A stretch of DNA of 48,598 nucleotides from Acidobacteriota bacterium. GTDB lineage: Bacteria; Acidobacteriota; Vicinamibacteria; Vicinamibacterales; UBA8438. The translations under genes and the position numbers were made by a program. The notes under the pieces are model-generated. The model did not search any database and had not been told where the DNA came from. It saw nothing but the letters and a program-made list of their open reading frames with translations. How positions within the stretch are numbered: position 1 is the stretch's first letter; each line of letters starts with the position of its first letter. Below, in pieces: positions 5,886 to 41,798 of the stretch. The DNA is taken from contig VXME01000099.1 in NCBI GenBank assembly GCA_009861545.1, forward strand, positions 1 through 48,598, read 5' to 3'.

Positions 5886-7233
5886 CCGCCAACCGCGCCA
5901 GCTCCTTCAGCCGCCCCGTGCTGTCGCCGAGCCCGTCGTCGAGCCGCACGCCGGCCTTGTCGAGCTGGCTGACGAGCAGGTTCGTCATCGGCGTGTCCCG
6001 CGGATACACGAGGTGCCGCCCGCCCTTCAGGTGTCCGCCGCTGCCGCCGACCAGCATCAGCGGCAGGTCGTAGTGCAGGTGCTTGTTGCTGTCGCTCAGC
6101 GACGCCCCGTACAGCAGCAGCGAGTGGTCGAGCAGCGAGCCGTCACCGTCCGGCGTCGAGGCCAGCGTCTCCAGGAAGCCTCGGAAGAGCGTGACGTGAT
6201 ACGTGTTGATCTTCGCGAGCTGGGCCAGCTTCAGCGGGTCGTAGCGGTGATGCGAGATGCCGTGGTGCGACTCCGGAATGCCGATCTCCGGATAGGCGCG
6301 GCCGTTCAGCTCGCGGCCCAGCATGAAGGTGAACACCCGGGTGATGTCCGCCTGCCAGGCCAGCGCCGTCAGGTCGAACATCAGGCCGACGTGCTCGGGA
6401 TAGGCTTCCGGGATGCCGATCGGCCGGGCCAGCTCCGGCAGTTCGGTGTCGCTCTGCTCGGAGAGCTGGATGCGCCGCTCGATGGCGCGCACCGCGTCGA
6501 GGTACTGCGTCACCCGCGCCCGGTCGCCCGCGCCGACCTCCCGCCGCAGCCGCGCGAGGTCGTCGGTGATGGCGTCCAGGATGCTGCGGTCCTTGCGGAA
6601 CTGCGCCCGCCGCTCGGCCGTGGAGCCGCCCTCGCCGAAGAGCCGCTCGAAGACGACGCGCGGGTTGTTCTCCATCGGCAGCGGCGTCGTCGAATCGCGC
6701 CACGCGATGGTGTTCATGTAGATGCAGCTATAGCCGTTCTCGCAGTTGCCCACCAGGAAGTCGCGGTCGATGGCCAGCTCCAGCGACGGCAGCGGCGTCG
6801 TCCGGCCGAGCTGCGCCGCCGCGATCTGATCGGCGGTCATCCCCGCCCGCACGTCGGCCCCCTCGGTCTCCTTCGGGTGGACGCCGTTCAGCCAGGTCGC
6901 CGTCGCCCGCGTGTGCTCGCCGTTGCCGTCGCCGAGCGCCTCGGCCTGCCCCTGGGCCAGCCCGCTGAGCACCACCATCCGGTCGCGGTAGTCGCCGAGC
7001 GGGCTGAGCGTGGGCGACAGCTCCAGCGCGGTCTTCGCCGCCGGCGTCCACGACTCCATCGCCATGCCGTTCGGCAGATAGACCCAGCCCAGCCGGCGCA
7101 CCGGCTCCGCCGCACGCACTGCGCCGATCCCGGTCAGCGCCGGCGCCATCGCATCCAGCATCGGCAGCGCAAGCGCAGCCCCGGCGCCGCGGAGGAACGT
7201 GCGCCGCGGCAGCGTCTTCCTGGTGATGATCAT
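5878..7233 (-). CDS. HXXSHH (DUF1552) protein with Tat signal, module copy 1
   Basis: The 451-residue protein starts with a twin-arginine signal (PRRTFLRGAGAALALPMLDAM) predicting folded export to the periplasm. The family-defining motif reads HGISHH at residues 324-329, preceded by IGIPES, and a later DHSLLLYGASLSDSN block is conserved. Family members always accompany PSCyt/PSD cytochromes in Planctomycetes and Acidobacteria; their reaction is unknown, although the metal-ligand-like histidines suggest an enzyme. The ATG at 7233 overlaps the PSCyt stop as ATGA, so translation is coupled, and the ankyrin gene overlaps the 3' end. Length is normal and nothing is broken. Confidence 0.9.
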   Translation of the reverse strand: MIITRKTLPRRTFLRGAGAALALPMLDAMAPALTGIGAVRAAEPVRRLGWVYLPNGMAMESWTPAAKTALELSPTLSPLGDYRDRMVVLSGLAQGQAEALGDGNGEHTRATATWLNGVHPKETEGADVRAGMTADQIAAAQLGRTTPLPSLELAIDRDFLVGNCENGYSCIYMNTIAWRDSTTPLPMENNPRVVFERLFGEGGSTAERRAQFRKDRSILDAITDDLARLRREVGAGDRARVTQYLDAVRAIERRIQLSEQSDTELPELARPIGIPEAYPEHVGLMFDLTALAWQADITRVFTFMLGRELNGRAYPEIGIPESHHGISHHRYDPLKLAQLAKINTYHVTLFRGFLETLASTPDGDGSLLDHSLLLYGASLSDSNKHLHYDLPLMLVGGSGGHLKGGRHLVYPRDTPMTNLLVSQLDKAGVRLDDGLGDSTGRLKELARLADV

Positions 7234-9716
7234 GATTCCGCTCTCCTCATCCTGAACGGCATGCTCTCGACGATCCCGACGATGAGCGACGAGAACCGGT
7301 AGTCGTTCTCCGCAGCCTTGCGCACGATGGCGCGGGTCGCCGGCGCGTCGTAGTGCTCCAGGCCGCGACCGAGCGCGTAGGTCATCAGTTTCTCGGTGAG
7401 GGTGCCGACGAAGCGCTCCGGATTGGCCGCCAGGGCCCGGCGCAACCCCGCGGCGCCGTCGAAACGCGTGCCGTCGGGCAGTTCGCCGGTGGCGTCGATA
7501 GGCGTGTTGGCGGCAGTGCGGGTACGGAAGCGCCCGACCGCGTCGAACTGCTCCAGCGCGAATCCCGGCGGGTCCATCAGCCGGTGGCAGCTCGCGCACA
7601 CCGGGTTCGCCCGGTGCCGCTCGGTCGCCTCGCGCATCGACAGCGCTTCCCCACTGTCGGTCGTCTCCTCCAGCGCCGGCACGTCGGGAGGCGGCAGCGC
7701 GGGCGGCGTCCCGAGCAGGTTCTCCAGCACCCACTTGCCCCGCAGCACGGGCGACGTCCGGTTCGGGTACGACGTGACCGCGAGGATGCTGGCGTGGCCC
7801 AGCAGGCCCCGCCGCGCCGCGTTCGCCACCGGCACCCGCCGGAAGTGGCTGCCGTAGATGCGCGGCATGCCGTAGTGACGGGCGAGGCGCTCGTTGACGA
7901 ACGTGTAGTCCGCGGTCAGCAGGTCGAGCACGTTGCGGTCTTCACGGAAGACGCTCTCGACGAACAGCTCGGTCTCGCGCCGCATCGCCTGCCGCAGCCC
8001 CTCGCCGACGTCGGGAAAGCGGTCCTCATCGGGCACGACGGCCGGCACGTTCCGCAGGTAGAGCCACTGGCTGGCGAAGCTCGTAACCAGGGCGCGCGCC
8101 CGCTCGTCGGCCAACATGCGGCGGACCTGCTGCTCCAGCACCGCCGGGTCGCGCAGGCGGCGGGCCGCGGCGAGGTCGAGCAGCTCGTCGTCCGGGATGC
8201 TGCTCCAGAGGAAGAACGACAGCCTCGACGCCAGCTCCAGGTCGCTGATGGCGTAGTTCGTCCCCGGCGCGACGCCGACGGGGTCCCGCTCGACCCGCAG
8301 CACGAACTCCGGACTGGCGAGGAGCCAGCGCAGGGCCATCTCGATGCCGGCGTCGAAGCCGCCCTCCCGCCGGCCTTCCTGGAAGAACCCGAGCAGAACG
8401 TCCAGATCGGCGTCCGTAACCGGCCGGCGGTAGGCGCGGCGCGCGAGGTTCGACAGGATCCTGCCGGCACACTCGGTGCGATCGGCGTCCGTGGCGCCGG
8501 CCGGGCGGCAGACGAAGATGCGCCGGCGGCTCGGCGGCTCCTCCCCCGGCGGCCCGCCGCTGGCGGCTAACGGCCCGGTGACGGTCACGCTGCCGAGGTA
8601 CGGCTGCACGCGCGTATCGCCGCCGGTGATGCTGGTGTACGGCCGCAGGTACGGCTGGCGCAACGTCTCCGGATAGGCCGCGGTCTTCCGCACGAACGTC
8701 ACGCGCAGCTCGTGCGGCCCCGCCTTGACCGGGAGGCGGAACTCCCAGTCGCCGTCGATGGTCCGCTGCCGGTCGCGCCAGGCGCGGTACTCGTCGCTGT
8801 CGCGCGGTGCATCCGACGGCGGCGGGCCGCCGACGGCGAAAGTACGAACCAGCGCGCCGTCCAGGCTCACCTCCAGCGTGTGCGGCGTCTCGAACACGGC
8901 CAGGTTGTCGCCGGCGTTGCGGGCCAGGCGGATGCGGAAGGCATAGTCGGCGTCCTCCGGGAACACGTGCCGGAACGCGCCGCCGCCCCGGGTGCCGAAG
9001 GGCATGCCCGCCACCCAGTCGTCCTGCGGCAGGTCGCTCGCGAGACGAAAGACCTCGGCGGTAGCCGACGGCGCTGGACGCCCGACCGCCACCCGGCTGA
9101 TTTTGCGTGCGGCGGCAAGGTAACGCTCCAGCAGCGTCGGCGACACGCCGAGCACGCCGGCGATGTTGTCGAACCCGTAGCTGGCCCCGTCGGCCGGCAG
9201 CAGCTCGGCGACGTCGACCTCCAAATCGAGCAGGTCACGGACCGCGTGGTGGTACTCCGTCCGGTTCAGGCGATGGAACGCCTCGGTCCGTCCCGGATTC
9301 GGATCGGCGTCCGCGGCCCGGTCGAGCTCGGCTTCCAGCCAGCCGACGAACCGGTCGTAGGTCGCCGCGTCCGGCCGCGGACGCGGCAGGGGCGGCATCG
9401 CGCCGGCCCGCAACTTGCGGACCACGGTCTCCCAGACGTCCGGCGCATCGGCGATGCGGGTCACGTCGTGGGTGTCCAGGGTGAGGTCGGCGGTGCGCAG
9501 CCGTTCGTTGTGACAGGCGACGCAGTAGCGGTCGAGAAGTGCCCGCTGCCAGCCCTCCGCAAGGGCGTCCTGCACGTGCGCGGCAGTCGCCGAACCGGAG
9601 GGCGCGGGCCCTGCCGCCCGGGCCGGAACTGCCGCGACTGCGAAGACGGCCAGCGTGCCGCCAAGCAGCATCGCGAGACACCCGGACACAGGGGCGGACG
9701 TTCCTTGTGAGGGCAT
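7230..9716 (-). CDS. PSCyt/PSD di-heme cytochrome-domain protein (DUF1592 type), module copy 1
   Basis: The 828-residue protein begins with a Sec signal peptide (hydrophobic to about residue 35, AxA before GPAPSG). A heme c motif CVACH lies at residues 65-69 in the PSCyt1 region, followed by the DUF1587 block (LNRTEYHHAVRDLLDLEVDV), a carbohydrate-binding-like beta region, DUF1595 and DUF1592 blocks (RAYRRPVTDADLD, RLSFFLWSSIPDDELL), a DUF1588 region with a second motif CASCH near residue 706, and the C-terminal DUF1585 region (EKLMTYALGRGLEHYD). Such proteins are assembled in the periplasm and assumed to transfer electrons, possibly to or from an HXXSHH partner; substrates are unknown. It heads the operon, with a good promoter at 9737-9766. 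Confidence 0.9.
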   Translation of the reverse strand: MPSQGTSAPVSGCLAMLLGGTLAVFAVAAVPARAAGPAPSGSATAAHVQDALAEGWQRALLDRYCVACHNERLRTADLTLDTHDVTRIADAPDVWETVVRKLRAGAMPPLPRPRPDAATYDRFVGWLEAELDRAADADPNPGRTEAFHRLNRTEYHHAVRDLLDLEVDVAELLPADGASYGFDNIAGVLGVSPTLLERYLAAARKISRVAVGRPAPSATAEVFRLASDLPQDDWVAGMPFGTRGGGAFRHVFPEDADYAFRIRLARNAGDNLAVFETPHTLEVSLDGALVRTFAVGGPPPSDAPRDSDEYRAWRDRQRTIDGDWEFRLPVKAGPHELRVTFVRKTAAYPETLRQPYLRPYTSITGGDTRVQPYLGSVTVTGPLAASGGPPGEEPPSRRRIFVCRPAGATDADRTECAGRILSNLARRAYRRPVTDADLDVLLGFFQEGRREGGFDAGIEMALRWLLASPEFVLRVERDPVGVAPGTNYAISDLELASRLSFFLWSSIPDDELLDLAAARRLRDPAVLEQQVRRMLADERARALVTSFASQWLYLRNVPAVVPDEDRFPDVGEGLRQAMRRETELFVESVFREDRNVLDLLTADYTFVNERLARHYGMPRIYGSHFRRVPVANAARRGLLGHASILAVTSYPNRTSPVLRGKWVLENLLGTPPALPPPDVPALEETTDSGEALSMREATERHRANPVCASCHRLMDPPGFALEQFDAVGRFRTRTAANTPIDATGELPDGTRFDGAAGLRRALAANPERFVGTLTEKLMTYALGRGLEHYDAPATRAIVRKAAENDYRFSSLIVGIVESMPFRMRRAES

Positions 9717-9736
9717 GAATCCAGTGAGACCCCCGT

Positions 9737-9766
9737 AGTATCCGGGGAACTTTCGGAGGGTGTCAA
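9737..9766 (-). promoter_or_regulatory. Predicted promoter of module copy 1
   Basis: On the minus strand a perfect TTGACA (9761-9766) is separated by 18 bases from GATACT (9737-9742), about 20 bases before the PSCyt ATG at 9716. An inverted repeat CCCCG (9731-9735) / CGGGG (9743-9747) brackets the -10 box and might be a regulator site. The leader would be short, around 14 bases. Confidence 0.5.
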
Positions 9767-9890
9767 TCTACCGAGCCGATGAGTCGTTCGGCGCAAACGA
9801 TGGCATCGTCGGAGTCCTTCGCCTGACGGAGCCAGTCGAGGAGCCTGGAAGCCACCACGGCATTCTAGCGATACGGTCTGGCGGCAGCCC

Positions 9891-12800
9891 CTATCGGCTC
9901 GGCCTCCGCCACCGCACCGGCGGCGCGGGCTCCTCCTTGAGCTCGACCTTCTCCGTCTCCAGCAACCGCAACGCTTCGCGGACGGCCGCCTCCAACTGCG
10001 GGTCGCCACCCGCGATCACCGGGGCCGGGTCGTTGCGGACCTCGATGTCCGGTGCGACGCCCTCGCCCTCCACGGCCCACTTGCCGTCGACGTCGAAAAA
10101 ACCGCCGCGGGGGGCAACGAAGAAGCCGCCGTCGACCAGCGGGGGCGTGTCCCACGACCCGACCAGCCCGCCCCACGTCCTCGTACCGACGAGGGGGCCG
10201 ATGCCCCGGAAGCGGAACAGGTAAGGCAGCAGGTCTCCCCCGGAGCCGGCGCTCTCGTTGATGATCATCACCTTCGGCCCGAAGAGCCCCGCCATCGGCT
10301 GGGTCCAGGGCTTGCGGCCGGCGCCGGGCGAATTGAAATAGCCGGTCAGCTCGCGGTCCAGCATGTCGACGATGTAGTCCGCGGCCGAGCCGCCGCCGTT
10401 GTTGCGCTCGTCGATGACCGCGCCCTCGCGATCCTTCTGCGCGTAATACATGCGGTTGAAGAACTCGTACCCGTTCCGAGAGGTGTTCGGGAGCCAGACG
10501 TAGGCGAGTCGTCCTCCGCTCAGCTCGTCCACACGTGCCTGGTTCGCCGCGACCCATGCCCACATGCGCTGGAAGGACTCGTTCGCGATCGGCTCGACGA
10601 CGATGTCCCGTGCTTGCTCCGCGGAAGGCGACGACGAGACGGTCACCGTGATCGTCCGCCCCGCCGTACCCTCCAGCAGGCGGTAGGGATTCGTCGGCGG
10701 ACGCAGCTCGACTCCATCGATGGCCAGCAGGTAGTCGCCCTCGGCGACCTCCAGCCCCGGCATTGAGAGCGGGCCGGTCGTGCCAGGCCACCACGCGTCG
10801 CCCGCGTAGATGCGCGCGAGGCGATAGAGCCCGTCGGCTTCCTCCAGGTCCGCGCCGAGCAACCCGGTGTGCGGATTCTCCAGGTCGGGATAGTCGCCGC
10901 CGAACACGTAGGAATGGCCGACCGCGATCTCTCCCGAGAGCATGTCCAGCAGGTGGTTGAAGTCCGCGCGGTGACGCACGTCGGGAAGCCACGCGGCGTA
11001 CCACTCCCACACGTCGTTCCAGGGCGCCCCGTGCTGGTTGTCGACGTACAGGAAGTCGCGCATGAAGCGCCAGCCGTCGCGCAGCATCTGGACATACTCG
11101 GCCCTCGGCTCGACGCGCACCCGCATGCCGCCCAGCTCGAGCCGTCCGTCGCCGTCCCCCGGCGGCTGCTCGGTGCCGACCACGCGCCAGTTGGAGCCGG
11201 ACCGGTAGAGCAGGTGCTTCCGATCATGCGAGGCGGCGATTTCGGTTCCCGGCGTCACGCGCGGACCTCCGGCGTGAACCAGCGTGAGGAAATCCTCCGC
11301 CGCGCGGTCCGCGACCGTGTACTTCAGGAGCGTCGCATCGCCCGCTTCCCCGCCGACCCGGGTCACGAAGACCGAGCCGCTCGGGCCGGGAACCAGCCCT
11401 CTGTAGTCCTTCGCCGGTAGTCCCGGCGCACCCACCATGCGCCGATCCATCCCCTCGAAGTCGATCTCTACGTCCGCCGGCGCCTCGTCTTCCTGTGCCT
11501 CCTCGCCCTCCTCTTCCTCCGACTCCTCCGACTCCCCTTCCGCCGCAACTTCCTCCTCGTCGCTGCGGGGCAGGAACGGGGAAGGCTCTCCTGCGGACAG
11601 CAGCGCCAGGTACAGGGTCCGGGTCACCGGACGGTCGTAGGAGGTCATGTCGAGCCAGCCCGTATTGAGAGCGTAGTCGGCCGACGCCAGGAAGTAGAGG
11701 TACTTCCCCGACCCGTCCCAAACGGGAGCGATCGCGTCGACCGTCCCGTCGGTGAGTTGGTGCGTCTCCCGCGCTTCGGTGTCGTGGATGAAGATGGCCC
11801 GCAACTGGTTGTCGAGGCGGCGCGCGTATGCGATCCACCTCGAATCGGGAGACCAGACCGGGTTCAGCGAGCGTTGCGGGTGGGCGTAGAGGTCGGTGTC
11901 GACGTGCTCCACGCCGCCTGACTCGACATCCAGGACGAGCACGCGGTAGTGCGTATCCGTGAACGCTAGCTTCGTGCCGTCGGGCGACCACTCGGGCCGG
12001 AAGTAGAACGTCGGATCGGGGATCTCGATGCGGCGCGGGTTCGACCCGTCCTGCTCGGCGATGACCAGGCCGTACTCGCCTCCGGCGTCGCTGAACCACG
12101 CGATGCGCGAGCCGTCGGGCGACCATGCCGGATGCCGGTCCGCCACCCCGGGGCTGCGGGTCAGGTTGCGCCAGGAACCTTCCTTCGCGGGCACGCTGAA
12201 GAGCTCTCCGCGCCACTCGAAGAGCGCGCGTCTCCCCGTCGGCGACAGACCGATGTTCTGGAACCGCGTCGGGGGGACCTCCTCCCACCGCGGCCGCGAC
12301 CAGTTCATGTCGCCTGCGACATGAATCTCCAGCTTTCGGGTGCAGCCCGACGCCGGATCGAGCTCGTGCAGGTACCCCGCCTGCTCGTACACCACGACGC
12401 CGGCGCCCGCGCCCAGCGACTTCACGTCGAAGTCCGCGTGGCGGGTGAGCTGCCGCTCCGCTCCCGTGCGCGGGTCGAACGACCAGACGTTGCCGGCCCA
12501 GTCGCGCTCGGACAGGTAGTAGACGAGCCCGTCCATCCACACGGGATGCATGTGGCGCTCGCCTTCCCAGGGTGCCGTCGCGCGCTCCCAGGTGGACGTG
12601 GACACGATGCTCACCGGCTGTGCCTGACCGCCCCGGTAGTTCCGCCACTCGGGGTCGTAGTACACGGTCTCCTGGTAGGCGATGTGGCCGCCGTCCGCGG
12701 ACATCTCCCCCAGGTACGCCTGCGGCAGCGGGAGTGGCGCCGGCAGCCCGCCCGAGCGGGGAACGGTGTAGAACTTCGAGAGCTTCGTGGGCAACGCGTC

Positions 12801-19068: not shown

Positions 19069-19408
19069 GATCTCCTCCGCAGCGAAACGGGACGGTGGCG
19101 GCGGCCGGTCAGCCGGTGGTGACCGGACGAACGGTGGCGGCCCCCATTGTAGTGCGACCCTCGCCTGTGCTATCACCAGCGCGGCGCGTAGCGAAACGCC
19201 AGGCGCCCGCGTCGGCGGCGGGTCCGGCGGCGACCGGAGGGCGACGACCGAAACCCGGTTCGTCGCGGCGTGGTCGGCCGCACGTCGAAGCATGCCCGTC
19301 GAAGCATGCCCGCCATGGCAAGTGATACGACCGCCGGCTGCTACAATGGGCTCTCTCCAGGAGGCGTCCAGCCGTTCGTGACAGCCGCTCGTGGCCAGGA
19401 GGTTGCTC
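19069..19408. promoter_or_regulatory. Divergent intergenic region with 14-bp tandem repeat
   Basis: This 340-base gap separates the divergent PhoD-like gene and the gene at 19409, so it should hold both promoters. CGTCGAAGCATGCC occurs twice in exact tandem (19283-19310). A TACAAT hexamer follows at about 19341-19346, 60 bases before the downstream ATG, without a convincing -35 box. No coding potential was seen on either strand. Confidence 0.4.
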
Positions 19409-20395
19409 ATGACCCGTAGACTCTCGAACGCCGCCGGCGCCGCCGCGATGGCGGTTGCCCTCGTCGCTCTCCTGCCCGCCGGCGCCGCCGGCCAGGAGAC
19501 GTCGTTCCGGACCCCCGACGGTCACCCGGACCTGCAGGGCGTCTGGAACTTCTCGACCGCCACGCCGATGGAACGGCCGGAGGACCTGGCCGGTCAGACG
19601 ACGTTGACGGCGGAGGAAGCCGCCGCCTGGGAGCAGCGGCTCGCGGAGCAGCGCGCCGCCAACGAGTCGGAGCGCGAGGACGCCCCGCTGGGAGCGCGCC
19701 TCGGCTACTCGGTCCGTGTCTGGTTCGAGCACGGCCATACGCTCTCCGAGCAGCGGACCTCGCTGGTCATCGATCCGCCGGACGGACGCATTCCCGCGGT
19801 GCGGCCGGAGGTAGCGGCGCGGGCGGAGCTGCGCAGCCTCCTGCGCGGGAGGCACGCCCACGGCCCCGAAGACCGCGGCGCCTCGGAGCGGTGTCTGCTC
19901 GGGTTCAACTCCGGGCCGCCGATGACCCCGAGCGCCTACAACAACAACGTGCAGCTCTTCCAGACCGCCGACCACGTGGTCATCCTCAACGAGATGGTGC
20001 ACAACGCGCGCATCGTTCCCCTGGACGGCCGCCCGCACCTGCCGGCGCATCTTCGACAGTGGGTCGGCGATTCCCGGGCGAGCTGGGACGGCGACACGCT
20101 CGTGATCGAGACGCGGAACTTTCTCGGCGAGACCTCCCTGCGGGGCTCGAGCGCCAACCTGCACCTGGTCGAGCGGTTCACGCGCGCCGGCGCCGACACG
20201 CTGATCTACGAGTTCACGGTCAACGATCCGACGAGCTGGGCGGGCCCCTGGACCGCACAGGTGCAGATGAACCGGACCTCTGAACCGCTGTACGAGTACG
20301 CGTGTCACGAAGGCAACTATTCCATGGCCAGCTCGCTCTCGGGTGCGCGCGCGATGGAAGCGAGGGAGGCCGCGGCAGGCGACGACTCACCCTGA
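19409..20395 (+). CDS. Exported protein of unknown function (DGHPDLQGVW family)
   Basis: The 328-residue protein has a clear Sec signal (AMAVALVALLPAGAAGQ) followed by RTPDGHPDLQGVWNFSTATP, a start motif I know from many acidobacterial and planctomycete exported proteins with no assigned function. Other conserved-looking blocks are GPPMTPSAYNNN, DHVVILNEMVHNARI, WDGDTLVIETRNF and the C-terminal YEYACHEGNYSM. The ATG at 19409 is preferred over a GTG at 19391 because AGGAGG (19397-19402) lies six bases before it. It is followed on the same strand by the cytochrome/PHM/TPR gene, suggesting a two-gene transcript. A beta-rich periplasmic fold is likely; no catalytic motif stands out. Confidence 0.75.
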   Translation: MTRRLSNAAGAAAMAVALVALLPAGAAGQETSFRTPDGHPDLQGVWNFSTATPMERPEDLAGQTTLTAEEAAAWEQRLAEQRAANESEREDAPLGARLGYSVRVWFEHGHTLSEQRTSLVIDPPDGRIPAVRPEVAARAELRSLLRGRHAHGPEDRGASERCLLGFNSGPPMTPSAYNNNVQLFQTADHVVILNEMVHNARIVPLDGRPHLPAHLRQWVGDSRASWDGDTLVIETRNFLGETSLRGSSANLHLVERFTRAGADTLIYEFTVNDPTSWAGPWTAQVQMNRTSEPLYEYACHEGNYSMASSLSGARAMEAREAAAGDDSP

Positions 20396-20412: not shown

Positions 20413-20470
20413 GCAGCCGCAAAGCGGCTGCCGCACTGGCGTCCGATGCTGGACTGGCGTCCGATGCTGG
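20413..20470. repeat. Hairpin plus exact 18-bp tandem duplication over the next start codon
   Basis: GCAGCCGC (20413-20420) and GCGGCTGC (20424-20431) form an 8-bp stem with an AAA loop just after the upstream stop. Immediately after, ACTGGCGTCCGATGCTGG is present twice in exact tandem (20435-20452 and 20453-20470), each copy holding an in-frame ATG (20446 and 20464) for the downstream gene. Confidence 0.7.
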
Positions 20471-22632
20471 CTGGGCTGTTCGACGGTCCGATCCGCGGCG
20501 GAGCACGGTACGCTCCGGCGTCTATCGGTACGGTCGTCGGACTACTCGTGGCAACGAGTCTGGCGGCGTCTGCGGAGCCGGCCCCGACGCAGCGGCGCGC
20601 AACCCGCCCGGCGGCGGACGCCGCCCGCGCCATCACGTTCAACAGGGACATCGCACCGCTCGTCTTCGAGCACTGCGCCACCTGTCACCGCCCCGGCACC
20701 GCCGCTCCGTTCAGCCTCCTGACCTACCGCGACGCCCGGCCCTGGGCCCGCGCCATCAAGCAGGCGACTCTGAGCCGGTCGATGCCGCCCTGGAAGCCGG
20801 CGCCGGGATACGGCGGCCCGTTCATCGGCGACCGGCGGTTGAGCGACGCCCAGATCGCTCTGATTGCCAGGTGGGTCGATGCCGGCGCGCCTGCGGGCGA
20901 CCCTGCCCACCTTCCGCCGCTGCCGGAAGGGTTCGGGGCATGGCGGCTCGGCGAGCCGGACCTGGTGATCGAAATGCCCGAGCCCTTCCTGCTACAGGCC
21001 GACGGGGACGATGTCTTTCGCAAGTTCGCGATTCCGATCCCGATCGAGGAGACGCGATTCGTGGAGGGCCTCGAGTTCCAGCCGGCCGTCCGGGGCGCGG
21101 GTTCCACGTGGGCGTCGAACCCCAGGGTCATCCACCACGCCAACATGCGGCTCGACCCGACGCCGGCCTCCCGCACGCTCGACGCGCGCGATCCCGCACC
21201 CGGCTTCGACGACGTCACGCCGTTCGACGCACAGTTTCCCTTCGGCCACCTGCTCGGCTGGACGCCCGGACAGGACCGGCCGCTGGTCGCGGAAGGGATG
21301 GCCTGGCGCCTGGACGCGGGCACCGACATGCTCCTCGAGCTGCACCTGATGCCGAGCGGGCAGCCGGAGGTCGTGCAGTCGCGCATCGGCTTCTATTTCA
21401 CCGATGAACCCCCGACGAAGATCCCGTTCACGATCCGGCTGGGCAAGCAGGATCTCGACATCCCGCCGGGGGCGACCGACTACCGCAGCCGGGACGCGTA
21501 CGTGCTCCCGGTCGACGTCGAGGTGCACGGCATTCATCCGCACGCGCACTACCTGGCGCAGGAAGTCAGGGCGCTGGCGACGCTTCCCGACGGGACGCGC
21601 CGTTGGCTCCTCTACATCCGGGACTGGGACGCCTCCTGGCAGGATTACTACTACTACGCCGAGCCCTTCGTGCTTCCCAGGAGCACGGAGCTGACCATGG
21701 AGTTCCGGTTCGACAACTCCGCCGGCAACCGGCGCAACCCGCACTTCCCCCCGCGGCGGGTCACCTGGGGCCCGCGGTCGTCGAACACGATGGGCGACCT
21801 GTCGATTCAGGTCCTGGCGCGGAGCGATTCCGACCGCGAGATCCTCGCCGCCGACCGCCGGCCGCTCGAGATGGCCGAGGACATCGTGGGATTCGAGACG
21901 GTCCTCGACGCCGAGCCCGGCAAGGTGACGGTGCACGACGACGTGGCCCGCCTCTACCTGCTGTTCGGGGAGGTCGCGAAGGCCCTCGCCCACTTCCGGG
22001 AGTCGGCGCGCCTGGAGCCCGACTCTCCCGCCGCGCAGTACAACGTGGGGACGACGCTGCTCCGGATGGGAGAGCTCGACGAAGCCGTCGCCCGTTTCGA
22101 GCGGGCGCTCCGGCTCGATCCCGACTACGCGCCGGTGCACAACAATCTCGGCGCGGCGCTGCGGTCGCAGGGCAGGCTGGACGAGGCGACCCACCGCTTT
22201 CGGCAGGCGGTACGGGCCCGCCCCGACGACGAGGACGCCCTCTACAACCTGGCGAGCACGCTGACCCTGCGGGGGGAGTTCACCGAGGCGATCGCGCTCT
22301 ACCGGCGGGTGCTCGCGCTGCTGCCGGATTCGCCGGAGCCGTTCGCCGAGCTCGCCTGGCTTCTGGCGACCCACCCGGATCCCACGCCGCGCGACGTGCA
22401 AGAGGCGGTGAGCCTTGCCGAACATGCCGCGCAGCTCACCAGTCGCCGGGACGCGCGCGTGCTCAACACGCTCGCGGCGGCCCATGCCGCGGCGGGCCGC
22501 TTCGACGAGGCTGCCGCGACCGCTCGCGCGGCCCTCGCGTTGCCGCACGACAGCGGAAGCGACCTCGCTGCCACGATCCGGCAACTGCTGGACCTGTACT
22601 CGGAGGGCCGTCGATACCGGCGCCCGCGCTGA
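20446..22632 (+). CDS. Cytochrome c / PHM-like copper monooxygenase / TPR fusion protein
   Basis: The 728-residue protein has three parts. After an export signal (TVVGLLVATSLAASA), a cytochrome c-like domain carries CATCH at 77-81 with a downstream MPPW as possible axial-Met region. The middle part looks like a type II ascorbate-dependent copper monooxygenase: H230-H231 (IHHANM), H300 (LELHL), H364/H366/H368 (HPHAH) and M449 (NTMGDL), in the order and approximate spacing of the PHM copper ligands (HH, H, HxH, M). The last ~235 residues are about six TPR units (NVGTTLLRMGELDEAVARF and others). I infer a periplasmic oxygenase with its own electron-transfer heme and a docking arm. Start choice: ATG 20446 or 20464; a start at 20302 would overlap the upstream gene. 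A clear ribosome-binding site is lacking. Confidence 0.8.
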   Translation: MLDWRPMLAGLFDGPIRGGARYAPASIGTVVGLLVATSLAASAEPAPTQRRATRPAADAARAITFNRDIAPLVFEHCATCHRPGTAAPFSLLTYRDARPWARAIKQATLSRSMPPWKPAPGYGGPFIGDRRLSDAQIALIARWVDAGAPAGDPAHLPPLPEGFGAWRLGEPDLVIEMPEPFLLQADGDDVFRKFAIPIPIEETRFVEGLEFQPAVRGAGSTWASNPRVIHHANMRLDPTPASRTLDARDPAPGFDDVTPFDAQFPFGHLLGWTPGQDRPLVAEGMAWRLDAGTDMLLELHLMPSGQPEVVQSRIGFYFTDEPPTKIPFTIRLGKQDLDIPPGATDYRSRDAYVLPVDVEVHGIHPHAHYLAQEVRALATLPDGTRRWLLYIRDWDASWQDYYYYAEPFVLPRSTELTMEFRFDNSAGNRRNPHFPPRRVTWGPRSSNTMGDLSIQVLARSDSDREILAADRRPLEMAEDIVGFETVLDAEPGKVTVHDDVARLYLLFGEVAKALAHFRESARLEPDSPAAQYNVGTTLLRMGELDEAVARFERALRLDPDYAPVHNNLGAALRSQGRLDEATHRFRQAVRARPDDEDALYNLASTLTLRGEFTEAIALYRRVLALLPDSPEPFAELAWLLATHPDPTPRDVQEAVSLAEHAAQLTSRRDARVLNTLAAAHAAAGRFDEAAATARAALALPHDSGSDLAATIRQLLDLYSEGRRYRRPR

Positions 22633-36071: not shown

Positions 36072-37412
36072 TCAGAGGCCGGTCAGCCGCCCCGTGCTGT
36101 CGCCGAGGCGCTCGGGCCGTACCCCGGCCATGTCGAGCATGCTCAGCAGCAGGTTCGTCATGGGTGTCTCGGGCTTGGCGCGCAGGTGTCGACCGCCCTT
36201 GAACCTGCCGGCCGCACCGCCGGCCAGCACGATCGGCAGCGGCGAGTGGTTGTGCAGGTTGCCGTCGCTCATGCCGCTCCCGTAGAGGAGCAGCGTGTGG
36301 TCGAGCAGCGTGCCGTCGCCGTCCGGCGTCGCCTGCAGCTTCTCCAGGTACGACGCGAAGGTCGCGACGTGGTGCGCGTTGACCTTGCCCAGCCTGGCGA
36401 GCTTCCCCTCGTCGTTCTGGTGGTGCGACAGGGCGTGGTGCGGATCGTTGATGCCGATGGCCGGAAAGGTCCGGTAGCTGGCCTCGCGGCCGAAGGCGAA
36501 GGTGGTCACGCGCGTGAGATCGGCCTGGTAGGCCAGCACCTGCAGGTCGATCATCAGTCCGGCGTGCGTCTCGAAGTCCTCCGGCACGCCAATGGGCCGG
36601 TCCGGGACCGGAAACTCCGTCGTACGGTTGTACTGCTCGGTCTTGCGAATGCGCCGCTCGGTCTCGCGAATGGCTTCGAGGTACTCGTCCACCCGCCGCT
36701 TGTCCTGCGCGCCCAGATCCGTGTGCAGCCGGCCGATCTCCTGCGTGACCGAGTCGAGCAGGCTGCGATCCATCTCCATCTCGCGCAGCCGGTCGGCCGT
36801 GCTGTCGCCGTCGCCGAACAGGCGCTCGAACACCGCGCGCGGATTGCGCTCCATCGGGTTGGGCGTGGTCGGCGTGCGCCACGAGATGGTGTTCATGTAG
36901 GCGCAACTGTAGCCGGCGTCGCAGTGGCCGACGATGTCGGCGGCATCGAGGGCGAGCTCGAGCGACGCGAGCGGCGTCACCGTCCCGATCTCCCGCGCCG
37001 CGATCTGGTCGGCGGTGGTGCCCACCTCGACGTCGGCTCCCTCGGTCCGCTTGGCGTGCACGCCGCTCAGCCACCCTGCGCTCGCCCGGGAGTGGTCTCC
37101 CCCGCCGTCGCCGAGCGACTCGAGCTGGCGATGGGCCAGATCGGTCACCACGACGACCTGCTCGCGGAACGGCGCGAGCGGCTGGAGAGAGGGCGACCAC
37201 TCGAAGTCACGGCCCGTGCCCTTCGGAGTCCACGCCGCGTGGTAGGCGCCGTTCGGGATGTAGATGAAGGCGAGCCGGCGCGCGGGGTGCGCGGGCGTGC
37301 GGGTCATGGCCGTCAGCGCCGGCACCATGGCGTCGAGCAACGGGAGAGCGACCGCTGCTCCCATGCCCCGGAGCACCGTCCGGCGAGGCAAGGCCTTCTT
37401 CGTGATGATCAT
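36072..37412 (-). CDS. HXXSHH (DUF1552) protein with Tat signal, module copy 3
   Basis: The 446-residue protein has the twin-arginine start LPRRTVLRGMGAAVALPLLD, HALSHH at residues 326-331 after IGINDP, and DHTLLLYGSGMSDGN. The ATG at 37412 overlaps the PSCyt stop as ATGA, as in copy 1. It is closest to copy 1, sharing GDGGGDHSRASAGWLSGVHAK-like and GDSTGRL segments. Unlike copies 1 and 4 there is no ankyrin gene downstream; that gene is placed divergently beyond the PSCyt gene. Function as for the family: unknown, presumed periplasmic enzyme or substrate-handling partner of the cytochrome. Confidence 0.9.
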   Translation of the reverse strand: MIITKKALPRRTVLRGMGAAVALPLLDAMVPALTAMTRTPAHPARRLAFIYIPNGAYHAAWTPKGTGRDFEWSPSLQPLAPFREQVVVVTDLAHRQLESLGDGGGDHSRASAGWLSGVHAKRTEGADVEVGTTADQIAAREIGTVTPLASLELALDAADIVGHCDAGYSCAYMNTISWRTPTTPNPMERNPRAVFERLFGDGDSTADRLREMEMDRSLLDSVTQEIGRLHTDLGAQDKRRVDEYLEAIRETERRIRKTEQYNRTTEFPVPDRPIGVPEDFETHAGLMIDLQVLAYQADLTRVTTFAFGREASYRTFPAIGINDPHHALSHHQNDEGKLARLGKVNAHHVATFASYLEKLQATPDGDGTLLDHTLLLYGSGMSDGNLHNHSPLPIVLAGGAAGRFKGGRHLRAKPETPMTNLLLSMLDMAGVRPERLGDSTGRLTGL

Positions 37413-40075
37413 GGCTGTACTCTCCGCATCCGAAACGGCTTGCTGTCGACGACGCCGCGAATCAGCGACGAGAAGCGGTAGGCGTCGCCGGCGGCGTCGC
37501 GGACGATCCGCCGTACCACGGGCGCATCCGTCAGCTCCACCCCCCGGCCGACGGCGTAGGTCAGCAGCTTCTCGGCCAGCGTCGTTACGAACTCCTCCGC
37601 GCGGCTCTCCAGCACGGTCCGCAGCCCCTGGGGCCCGTCGAACCGGGTGCCGTCCGGCAGCACCCCGGAGGCATCCACCGGTTCGTCCGACTCGCTTCGT
37701 TCCCGCCAGCGGCCGACCGCGTCGAAGTTCTCCAGCGCCAGCCCCAGCGGGTCCATCTGCGCGTGACAGACCGCGCAGCTCGGATTCTTGCGGTGCTGTT
37801 CCATCCGCTCCCGCATCGACCGCACCCGGCCGTCGGCGGTCTCCTCTTCGAGTTCCGGGATATCCGGTGGTGGCGGCGGAGGAGGCGCGCCGATGATGTT
37901 CTCCAGGATCCACTTGCCGCGGGTCACCGGTGACGTCCGGTTCGCGTAGGAGGTCGCCGTCAGCAGGCTGGCATGTCCCAGCACGCCCGACCGGTTCCGA
38001 TCCGTCAACGTCACGGGGCGGAAGTGGCTGCCGTAGACTCGCGGAATCCCATAGTGCCGGGCCAGCCGTTCGTTGAGGAACGTCGTGCGCGACGTCAGGA
38101 ACTCCAGCGCGCTGCGGTCCTCGCGGATCACCCGGTCGAAGAACAACTCCGTCTCCCGCTGCATCGCCTGCCGCAGGTTCTCGTCGAAATCCGGAAACTG
38201 GATGGGATCCGGCGCCGTGCCGGCCAGGTTGCGCAGGTACAGCCATTGCCCCCCGAAGTTGTCCACGAGCGCCTTCGAGCGCGGGTCCCGCAGCATCCGG
38301 CGCACCTGCCCGTGGAGCACGCCGGGATCGCCGAGCCGCCCGGCCTCGGCCACGTCGAGCAACTCGTCGTCGGGAATGCTGCTCCACAGGAAGAACGACA
38401 GGCGCGACGCCAGCTCCAGGTCGCGCAGCGGCCTCGCCGTGCCGGCGCTGTCTGTCGGGGCGTCGCGCTCGATGCGGAACAGGAACTCCGGGCTCACGAG
38501 AACGCGCTGCAGCGCCCGCCCGATGCCGTCCTCGAAAGTGCCTTCCCGGCGCCCTGCCGCGTAGAACCCGAGCAATACCTGAAGGTCCGCCGCGGTCACC
38601 GGCCGGCGATAGGCGCGACGAGCGACCTGCGCCATGATTCGCCGCGCGCACGCCGTTTCCTCTTCCGCATGATCCGGACGGCAGACGAACAGCCGGCGCC
38701 GGCTCGGCGTGTCCCCCGGTCCTGTCGCGCCGTACGGTCCGCCGATGGCCACGCTCCGCACGTGCGGCGGGCCCGACGTGTCGGCCGGATCGATGTTGCT
38801 GCGCAGCAGCGGCTGGCGAATCGTGGCCACTTGCGCCGAGGTCTTCCTGAGGAACGCCACGGCGAGCGTGCGGGTTCCGGCCTGGACCGGCAGCCGCACC
38901 TCCAGTGCCGCATCCGCGTTCATCGAGTACGCCAGCGCCGCTTCCCGCGCGGCTCGCCGCGCCGCCTCCCGCGCCTCCTCGTCGGCGTCGTCATCCACCT
39001 CGAACGCGTCCGCCCGCGGCTGGGCGCCGCCGATGGTGAAGAGCCGCACACGCTCGCCGTCCAGGCTGACCTCGAGTTGGTGCGGCTCTCCCAATCCCCG
39101 AATCGTGTCTATGACCGTTCGCAGCAGGCGCACGCGGACGACGTACTCGCCGTCGAGCGGAAACCGGTGCCGCACGGCGATGCCGCCCCGCGTGCCGAGC
39201 GGCAGACCGTCGAGATGGTCGTTCTGGGTCAGCACCGTCGGCACGAGGTAGGTTGAAATGGCCGGACTGATCGCTGCGCTGCCGACGGCCAACCGGCTGA
39301 TGCGCCGGGCCGCGCCGAGGTAGCGCTCGAGCAGCAGCGGCGATACGCCCAGCGCATCGGCGATGTTGTCGAACCCGTAGCTCGCATCGTCCGGCGGCAG
39401 CAGGGACGCGACGTCGACGTCCAGGGCCAGCAGATCCCGTATGACGCTGGCGTACTCGGCGCGGTTGAGCCGATGGAAGACGGCAGTCCGCGGCAGATCG
39501 GCCCGCGCCGCCCAGGCGGCATCGAGATCGGCCTCGAGGCGCGCGAGAAACGCGTGGCGCATCTCCGCGTCCGGGCGCGGACGGCCGGCGGGCGGCATGG
39601 CCCCCGCACGGAGCTTGCGGACGACCCTTTCCCAGATCTCCGGGTCGCGGCCGACGTTCGACAAGTCGAGCGTGTCGAGGGTCAGCCCGACCGCGCGGAG
39701 CTGCGCGGCGAGCGGCGACGCCGCGCCGCCACGGCCCTGCACGACCCGCTCGTTGTGGCAGGCCACACAGTAGCGGTCGAGGAGCTCGCGCGACGGAGCG
39801 GCATCGCCGCCGGATGCCCCATCCTCCTGCTGCGCGAGGACTGCCTCCTGCCGCGGGCCGCCGACGGCATGGAAATTCGACGCGGACGCCAGAAGGAACA
39901 CCAGACAGCAGGCGCCCAGGACGCCCGGGCAGATCGCCCGAGGGCAGCGCCGTTCTTCCGGAAGAGCCGCCCCTCCGGCCGGGTGTTTGCGCCCGAGCAG
40001 TCTCCTGCGGAGCAGACTCCCGGCGCTCCGGAACAGTCGCCGCAATCCGTTTGGCCCGGCCAAGTTGCCGTGCAT
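37409..40075 (-). CDS. PSCyt/PSD di-heme cytochrome-domain protein with insertions, module copy 3
   Basis: At 888 residues it is the longest of the four. A basic N-terminus of about 55 residues precedes a hydrophobic span (GVLGACCLVFLLASASNF), so it may stay membrane-anchored. Heme motif CVACH is at 103-107, followed by a ~17-residue insert (VQGRGGAASPLAAQL) absent in the others. An Ala/Glu/Arg-rich helical insert (EEAREAARRAAREAA) interrupts the middle beta region. DUF1587, DUF1595, DUF1592, DUF1588 (second motif CAVCH near residue 767, after a run of seven prolines) and DUF1585 blocks are all present. ATG 40075 is the first reasonable start after the upstream palindrome, but no good ribosome-binding site precedes it, so the N-terminus is uncertain. 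Confidence 0.85.
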   Translation of the reverse strand: MHGNLAGPNGLRRLFRSAGSLLRRRLLGRKHPAGGAALPEERRCPRAICPGVLGACCLVFLLASASNFHAVGGPRQEAVLAQQEDGASGGDAAPSRELLDRYCVACHNERVVQGRGGAASPLAAQLRAVGLTLDTLDLSNVGRDPEIWERVVRKLRAGAMPPAGRPRPDAEMRHAFLARLEADLDAAWAARADLPRTAVFHRLNRAEYASVIRDLLALDVDVASLLPPDDASYGFDNIADALGVSPLLLERYLGAARRISRLAVGSAAISPAISTYLVPTVLTQNDHLDGLPLGTRGGIAVRHRFPLDGEYVVRVRLLRTVIDTIRGLGEPHQLEVSLDGERVRLFTIGGAQPRADAFEVDDDADEEAREAARRAAREAALAYSMNADAALEVRLPVQAGTRTLAVAFLRKTSAQVATIRQPLLRSNIDPADTSGPPHVRSVAIGGPYGATGPGDTPSRRRLFVCRPDHAEEETACARRIMAQVARRAYRRPVTAADLQVLLGFYAAGRREGTFEDGIGRALQRVLVSPEFLFRIERDAPTDSAGTARPLRDLELASRLSFFLWSSIPDDELLDVAEAGRLGDPGVLHGQVRRMLRDPRSKALVDNFGGQWLYLRNLAGTAPDPIQFPDFDENLRQAMQRETELFFDRVIREDRSALEFLTSRTTFLNERLARHYGIPRVYGSHFRPVTLTDRNRSGVLGHASLLTATSYANRTSPVTRGKWILENIIGAPPPPPPPDIPELEEETADGRVRSMRERMEQHRKNPSCAVCHAQMDPLGLALENFDAVGRWRERSESDEPVDASGVLPDGTRFDGPQGLRTVLESRAEEFVTTLAEKLLTYAVGRGVELTDAPVVRRIVRDAAGDAYRFSSLIRGVVDSKPFRMRRVQP

Positions 40076-40153
40076 CACCTGCTGCAAGACGCCGCGAGAC
40101 TCCCGACGCCGTCGACCCGAATCAAGCTGTGGAAGCGAGTTCCCGTAGTCTAT

Positions 40154-40201
40154 GGGTCTGCGCCGTAGAACGCAACGGAACGAGTTCCACGGTGCAGACC
40201 C
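40154..40201. repeat. Long imperfect palindrome in the divergent promoter region of module 3
   Basis: GGGTCTGCGCCGTAGAAC (40154-40171) and GTTCCACGGTGCAGACCC (40184-40201) pair over 18 positions with two non-Watson-Crick pairs around a 12-base loop. Seventeen bases of the left arm (GTCTGCGCCGTAGAACG) recur inverted in the hairpin at 42903-42939, so this is a dispersed element rather than a single operator. Confidence 0.6.
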
Positions 40202-40249
40202 GTGGGGCGGTGGACCCGAACACGGAGCCTTGCGACGGGTTGGCGGCGC

Positions 40250-40255
40250 TATACT
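40250..40255 (+). promoter_or_regulatory. Candidate -10 box for ankyrin gene of module 3
   Basis: TATACT lies 55 bases before the ATG at 40311, within CTATACTGCG, the same ten bases as the -10 region of module 4 (minus strand, 48406-48415). The best -35 (TTGCGA) is only 14 bases away, so an unusual spacing or an activator would be needed. Confidence 0.35.
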
Positions 40256-40310
40256 GCGGCTGATCGTTTCCGCCACCGCCGTCCGCTCATTCTTATCGGA
40301 GGGCATCGAC

Positions 40311-41798
40311 ATGCGCGTCACCTGCCTGTACGGGTTGTTGATTCTCCTGCTTTCGTCAGCCGGTCCCGCGGTTGCAGCCGCCGCCGAGCGACTCGTCGAC
40401 GCGGTACGGAACGGCGATTCCGCCGCCGTCCGGGCGCTGGTGGAAGCAGGTGCAAACGTCGACGTGGCCGAGCCCGACGGCACGACCGCCCTGCACTGGG
40501 CGGTGCGGCAGGACCGGTCCGGGATCGCCAAGCTGCTGCTGCGGGCCGGGGCCGACGCCAACGCGGCGAACCGTTACGGCATCACTCCGCTATCGCTGGC
40601 CGGCACGAACGGAAACGCCGAGACCGTCGCGCTCCTGCTCGACGCCGGCGCGGATCCGAACCTCGCCGCCCCGGAGGGCGAGACCCCGCTGATGACCGCG
40701 GCACGCACCGGGAACCCGGAGGTGCTCCGCCTGCTGCTGGCTGGTGGCGCCGGCGTCAACGGGGCCGAAGCCTGGCGCGGACAGACCGCGCTGATGTGGG
40801 CGGCGGCGGAAGGCAACGCCGAGGCCGCGGGGGTGCTGGTCGAGGCGGGAGCCGACGTGGCCGCGCGCTCCTCCCGAGGATTGACGGCACTGTTGTTCGC
40901 GGCGCGTAGCGGCGACCTGCATACTGTCCAGGCGCTGCTGGCGGGCGGCGCGAGCATCGACGAGACGGCCATGGACGCCATCCCGGCGCGGCGCCGTGAG
41001 GAGCACGCCGACGAAAACGTGCCGCCGCGCCTCGGCTCGAGCGTCCTGGCCACGGCCATCGAGAACGCGCACTACGACCTGGCGGCCTGGTTGGTTTCGG
41101 AGGGTGCCGACCTGAACGCGGACGGCCCGCGCGGAACCGCGCTGCACGGCCTGGTGCGGACGCGCAACTGCGAGCGGACCGCCCTCCCCTGCCCGGTGCG
41201 CTCCGGCCCGCTGGACAGCGTTGCGCTGGCCGAGCTGCTGCTTGCCCGCGGCGCCGATGTCAACGCGCGGATGAGCGCCGATCCACCGAAGAACGGGACC
41301 TACGACTACACCTACATGAGTCACGTCGGGGCGACACCGCTGTTCCTCGCGGTGAAGGCCTCGGACACCACGATGACCCGCCTCCTGCTCGATCATGGCG
41401 CCGACCCGGCGATCGGGAACGACGAGAACACGACGCCGCTGCTCGTGGCGGCCGGTATCGGCTACATCGAAGGCCAGATCATCGCGTCGGAGGAAAAGGC
41501 GTTCGAAGCGGTCCGCATGCTGGTCGAGCGGGGCGAGGACGTCAACACGACCAACGACAAGAACGAGACGGCGCTCCACGGCGCCGCCTACCGGGGTGCG
41601 AACTCCATCGCGATGTACCTGATCGACCACGGCGCCCGGCTGGATATCGAGGACGATCTGGGGCGCATGCCGGTCACGATCGCCGACGGCGTCGTCGCGG
41701 GCCCCTATTTCCGGGCGCACGACGAGACAGCGGCGCTGTTGCGCAAGTTGATGGGTCCGAGCGCCCCGCCGAGGCCGACCTCGCAGGGCGCCCGGTAG
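40311..41798 (+). CDS. Exported ankyrin-repeat protein, module copy 3
   Basis: The 495-residue protein has a Sec signal (LYGLLILLLSSAGPAVAA) and about eleven ankyrin units. It shares with copies 1 and 4 the WRGQTALMWAAAEGNA unit, the SHVGATPLFLAVKASDTTMT unit and the TTPLLVAAGIGYIEG block followed by EAVRMLVERGEDVNTTND and ALHGAAYRG. GGAGGG (40298-40303) is seven bases upstream of the ATG. It faces away from the PSCyt/HXXSHH pair. A single short insertion with an RNCERTALPCPV cysteine pair interrupts the array. Role inferred: periplasmic partner of the cognate proteins. Confidence 0.85.
   Translation: MRVTCLYGLLILLLSSAGPAVAAAAERLVDAVRNGDSAAVRALVEAGANVDVAEPDGTTALHWAVRQDRSGIAKLLLRAGADANAANRYGITPLSLAGTNGNAETVALLLDAGADPNLAAPEGETPLMTAARTGNPEVLRLLLAGGAGVNGAEAWRGQTALMWAAAEGNAEAAGVLVEAGADVAARSSRGLTALLFAARSGDLHTVQALLAGGASIDETAMDAIPARRREEHADENVPPRLGSSVLATAIENAHYDLAAWLVSEGADLNADGPRGTALHGLVRTRNCERTALPCPVRSGPLDSVALAELLLARGADVNARMSADPPKNGTYDYTYMSHVGATPLFLAVKASDTTMTRLLLDHGADPAIGNDENTTPLLVAAGIGYIEGQIIASEEKAFEAVRMLVERGEDVNTTNDKNETALHGAAYRGANSIAMYLIDHGARLDIEDDLGRMPVTIADGVVAGPYFRAHDETAALLRKLMGPSAPPRPTSQGAR

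Follow-up and report, generated by a model that had tools for sequence, protein, structure and literature searches.

We identified, in a 48,598-nucleotide stretch of DNA from an Acidobacteriota bacterium (the whole of it is hereafter called the window), a gene whose product joins a cytochrome c domain, a region resembling the two-copper core of peptidylglycine alpha-hydroxylating monooxygenase (PHM) and a TPR array. We consider it probable, at roughly 60%, that this bacterial protein is exported and works as a monooxygenase of the copper type II (PHM/DBM) superfamily, taking in electrons through its covalently attached cytochrome c. By its fold and its copper ligands it is a member of this superfamily, although it is not a PHM in the strict sense. 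The parts of the protein are known, while their combination and the scale on which it occurs are apparently undescribed, as far as the literature that we searched shows.

The gene and its accessory domains

The open reading frame (20446-22632, forward strand) encodes a protein of 728 aa. It starts with an ATG at 20446, has a possible alternative start at the ATG at 20464, and ends with the stop codon at 22630-22632. The product consists, in this order, of a leader, a cytochrome c domain, a central region of ~310 residues and a TPR array that begins at about residue 482. Orthologues are 87-91% identical to the gene at the DNA level, and the comparison with two full-length ones gave a dN/dS of ~0.19 (0.072/0.371 and 0.066/0.353). 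Hence, judging from these alignments, this is a real gene, kept under purifying selection. The N-terminal leader (residues 1-43; 20446-20574, forward strand) contains a hydrophobic stretch that is common to the orthologues and resembles a signal peptide, and the protein is probably exported.

The cytochrome c domain covers approximately residues 60-155 (20623-20910, forward strand). The Pfam model Cytochrome_CBB3 matches this segment of the window protein at 6.3e-5, under the cut-off, and matches 62 of 66 relatives; residues 55-161 were modelled by AlphaFold2 with a pLDDT of 86. An earlier note on this DNA had placed a CATCH heme domain ahead of a dicopper region, and this is confirmed: C77, C80 and H81 of the CATCH heme-attachment motif (20674-20688, forward strand) are invariant in 66 intact relatives. 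More generally, the residues for which the note had given positions (H230, H231, H300, H364, H366, H368 and M449) are all where it had put them, and H361 is present as well. The MPPW motif at residues 113-116 (20782-20793, forward strand) is likewise invariant in the 66 relatives, and its M113 is a candidate distal ligand of the heme. C77 and C80 are the only cysteines of the whole protein. Structure comparison with the heme domain alone gave weak matches, the best with FoxE (Z 6.0) and another with the hydrazine synthase cytochrome (Z 4.7), and found no convincing closest structure.

The TPR array (21889-22530, forward strand), which had also been proposed to follow the dicopper region, has strong Pfam support. 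TPR models match the protein down to 4e-28, among them TPR_2 at 1.9e-27 over five stretches, and the array has about five to six repeats. In the tree of the family, TPRs are essentially a trait of one clade, and most members outside this clade lack them. One other locus of the same genome (L081, G000:C115:65768-69720) is a direct tandem of two TPR-bearing members of the family.

The dicopper region and its relationship to PHM

The relationship of the central region to PHM is visible only by family profiles or by structure. Single-sequence searches of Pfam, NCBIfam and the PDB, with the whole protein or with the central domain, returned no copper monooxygenase, and the central region had no match in Pfam at E-values up to 10 and none to a PDB sequence. 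A profile of 27 family members, run against the PDB, identified rat PHM at 3.6e-7. A larger profile of 66 members (A2), which excludes fragments, duplicates and the decayed copies L006, L020 and L055, identified PHM at 4.6e-12, in a match that spans both jelly rolls, and human dopamine beta-hydroxylase (DBH) at 4.4e-6, the only other rows being two weak cytochrome fragments.

In the alignment of A2 to 1OPM, in which PHM numbering is the chain index plus 44, the six copper ligands of PHM are matched one to one and in order. More precisely, the putative CuH ligands are H230 and H231 (PHM H107 and H108; 21133-21138) and H300 (PHM H172; 21343-21345), and the putative CuM ligands are H366 and H368 (PHM H242 and H244; 21541-21549) and M449 (PHM M314; 21790-21792), all on the forward strand. 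The family profile thus gives the same mapping onto the HH, H, HxH and M of PHM as the earlier note had given. The note had written the third of these motifs as HxHxH, of which H366 and H368, equivalent to the HxH of PHM, are conserved, whereas position 364 varies (Q, Y, F, S and others). Ten residues, namely C77, C80, H81, M113, H230, H231, H300, H366, H368 and M449, are invariant in 66/66 relatives, a count that comprises intact relatives only. This invariance of the six copper-ligand columns and of the heme ligands excludes chance as an explanation of the pattern. When fragments and decayed copies are counted, all six copper ligands are found in 67 of 77 distinct members.

The three decayed copies, L006 (G000:C132:13770-15869), L020 and L055, have lost most or some of the copper ligands and kept CxxCH and MPPW; they are apparent pseudo-enzymes. 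Since they keep the heme and lose the copper ligands, the heme part may serve without copper.

Searches with the Pfam models of copper type II ascorbate-dependent monooxygenases, one of which the earlier note had put forward as a check, succeeded with the relatives and not with the window protein itself, which matches neither model. Cu2_monooxygen (PF01082) matches 8 of the 66 relatives (best 6.2e-7), and Cu2_monoox_C (PF03712) matches 46 of them (best 1.6e-9), some over the curated cut-off. In the six frames of the window's own genome, PF03712 matched 12 places at E-values up to 1, all of which are members of the family, one of them over the curated cut-off.

The AlphaFold2 model of residues 40-488, built from a 27-row alignment (mean pLDDT 86, pTM 0.84), predicts a PHM-like double jelly-roll at residues 169-478 (20950-21879, forward strand). 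A Foldseek search with this model listed nothing but PHM and DBH in its first 31 rows (E 2.9e-11 to 1.4e-7). VIA-align superposed the model on PHM with Z 20.9 (rmsd 3.1 A over 268 residues) and on DBH with Z 19.9, and the next unrelated fold was peptide:N-glycanase, with Z 7.2. The prediction and its superposition therefore agree with the PHM fold that had been expected, and not with a fold unlike it. From the superposition and the residue alignment, the side chains of the copper ligands would lie close together in space.

In line with these comparisons, the window protein resembles rat PHM (1PHM and 1OPM) in the double jelly-roll (Z 20.7-20.8) and in the order of the six copper ligands, but is ~16% identical to it, adds the cytochrome c and the TPRs, and lacks the lyase domain. 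The positions of R240, N316 and Y318, which we take to be the peptide-contact residues of PHM, are occupied by H364, D451 and S453 in the window protein and are variable in its relatives. Because of these replacements, a glycine-extended peptide should not be assumed to be the substrate. PHM has disulfide-forming cysteines; none of its disulfides is possible in the window protein, since both cysteines serve the heme. The family of DBH and MOXD (human 4ZEL) is similar in its catalytic core, with the structure and profile scores given above. DBH carries an N-terminal DOMON domain before this core, where the window protein has a cytochrome c with covalent heme instead.

A survey of the fold published in 2022 treats PHM as eukaryotic (PMC8812541). 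Neither a bacterial nor a heme-fused PHM is described in the literature searched, which is weak evidence since subscription journals were mostly outside its coverage. Presumably, sequence databases already flag some members of the family, very likely through Pfam or structural superfamily models.

Distribution of the family, co-occurrence of heme and copper motifs, and genomic context

The family is present in Acidobacteriota, Planctomycetota and Verrucomicrobiota. The window's own genome (G000, 6.35 Mb), which its nearest named relatives place in the Vicinamibacterales (Acidobacteriota), has ~25 paralogues, its 25 matches corresponding to about 25 genes. Among genomes of the same bacterial family as this one, each of the 28 that we searched has between 12 and 54 matches at E-values up to 1e-20, and split matches may inflate some of these counts. 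Elsewhere, the distribution is patchy, and the family was found in 41 of the 199 genomes sampled from Acidobacteriota and in 57 of the 149 from Planctomycetota. Several Planctomycetota proteins (L110-L116 and L119) have the heme-PHM core in common with the window protein, but start with an AhpC/TSA redoxin domain and, in some cases, end in EF-hands, where the window protein has TPRs.

The query with which the family had been gathered spanned both domains. Hence, we searched again, this time using no profile but that of the PHM C-terminal domain in Pfam. This gave 29 loci in 16 of 247 genomes of the phylum, all over the cut-off, and none in 14 control genomes. All 29 loci belong to the family: 28 have a CxxCH in frame, 27 of these have MPPW as well, and the remaining one is a broken gene with a CASCH upstream in another frame. 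TPRs, EF-hands and redoxin vary as accessory parts of the family, whereas practically every member has the cytochrome, the only addition that stays constant, and CxxCH occurs in all full-length members seen. This constancy is our main argument for electron entry through the heme, which we infer, on good grounds, to be the route to the coppers. In PHM, ascorbate is the source of the reducing equivalents, of which each of the two coppers delivers one (PMC6123673); a one-electron carrier fused to the enzyme suits this scheme.

The flanking genes differ between close orthologues, and the gene therefore looks self-standing. Neither the flanks of the orthologues nor the other family loci yielded a clue to the substrate among neighbouring genes. 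Of 22 family loci, 6 have a PQQ-type dehydrogenase at a distance of up to ~6 kb, and we rejected this enzyme as such a clue because ~4 loci are expected by chance from the ~98 matches in the genome. These matches to the PQQ-dependent alcohol dehydrogenase model (E up to 1e-20, most under the curated cut-off) make up a second very large redox family in this genome. The window also encodes, on the reverse strand at 7230-9716 and 37409-40561, two cytochrome-bearing proteins of planctomycete type with DUF1587/1595/1592/1588/1585 (PSD/PSCyt3). A 334-aa protein ('RTPDGHPDLQGVWNFSTATP...'; 19391-20395, forward strand), which has no Pfam or NCBIfam match, is related to open reading frames near several other family loci. 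At the orthologous locus L018, a spermidine-synthase-like membrane protein with TPRs (8190-11732, reverse strand) is encoded between the heme-PHM gene and a TonB-type receptor; it is absent from the window.

Proposed working and alternative explanations

In the working that we propose, for which we infer copper loading, the electron path, monooxygenation, the substrate, the TPR role and the cell location, the heme (C77/C80/H81, M113) would receive electrons from periplasmic respiratory carriers and hand them on to CuH (H230/H231/H300). From CuH they would pass to CuM (H366/H368/M449), where O2 would be activated, followed by C-H hydroxylation of a substrate other than peptidylglycine. The role of the C-terminal TPRs would be to bind a partner or to keep the enzyme within an assembly.

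Heme and copper are also the inventory of oxidases, peroxidases and reductases, and the protein might use them in one of these capacities (acting, for example, on O2, H2O2 or NO), as a redox protein of PHM fold that hydroxylates no organic compound. This explanation would suit both the replacement of the residues by which PHM binds its substrate and the abundance of periplasmic-type redox proteins in the host genome (the ~98 quinoprotein matches). Yet the two copper sites of PHM are invariant in intact members, down to the CuM methionine that marks the site of O2 and substrate, and the full PHM set would not be expected over three phyla without C-H chemistry, so that we regard it as unlikely. 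The protein could also be a conventional monooxygenase driven by ascorbate or another small reductant, as PHM runs on ascorbate without a heme (PMC6123673), in which case the heme domain would be only structural or regulatory, for example in redox sensing. The variation of accessory domains in the family agrees with such a role, but the heme domain is precisely the accessory part that does not vary. Moreover, exported enzymes that run on ascorbate are not known as a bacterial trait, and this explanation seems to us quite improbable.

We also give little credence to a scaffold that reuses the PHM fold for binding copper (in storage, delivery or sensing) or for recruiting partners, with the TPRs as the working part. 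Partner recruitment is typical of TPR arrays, and some relatives persist after the loss of copper ligands; however, the conserved ligands are the full catalytic set, and the restriction of TPRs to essentially one clade leaves most of the remaining members without the supposed working part. Our preferred reading is thus that of an exported copper monooxygenase fed by its own cytochrome. For the family as a whole, the chances seem about even that it forms a class of bacterial PHM-type dicopper monooxygenases in which the fused cytochrome c replaces ascorbate by a connection to respiration, with dozens of paralogues per genome acting on different substrates.

The two-copper fold of the window protein is the one by which animals finish their peptide hormones, and the dozens of versions in related bacteria suggest a large group of bacterial copper oxygenases with an electron wire of their own. 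If this is true, these proteins would represent another way of feeding two separated coppers, and the transfer from heme to CuH to CuM would be traceable by heme spectroscopy within one polypeptide. They would also provide bacterial, disulfide-free expression targets. For this bacterial family, it would mean an oxidative chemistry to which single genomes devote as many as dozens of genes.
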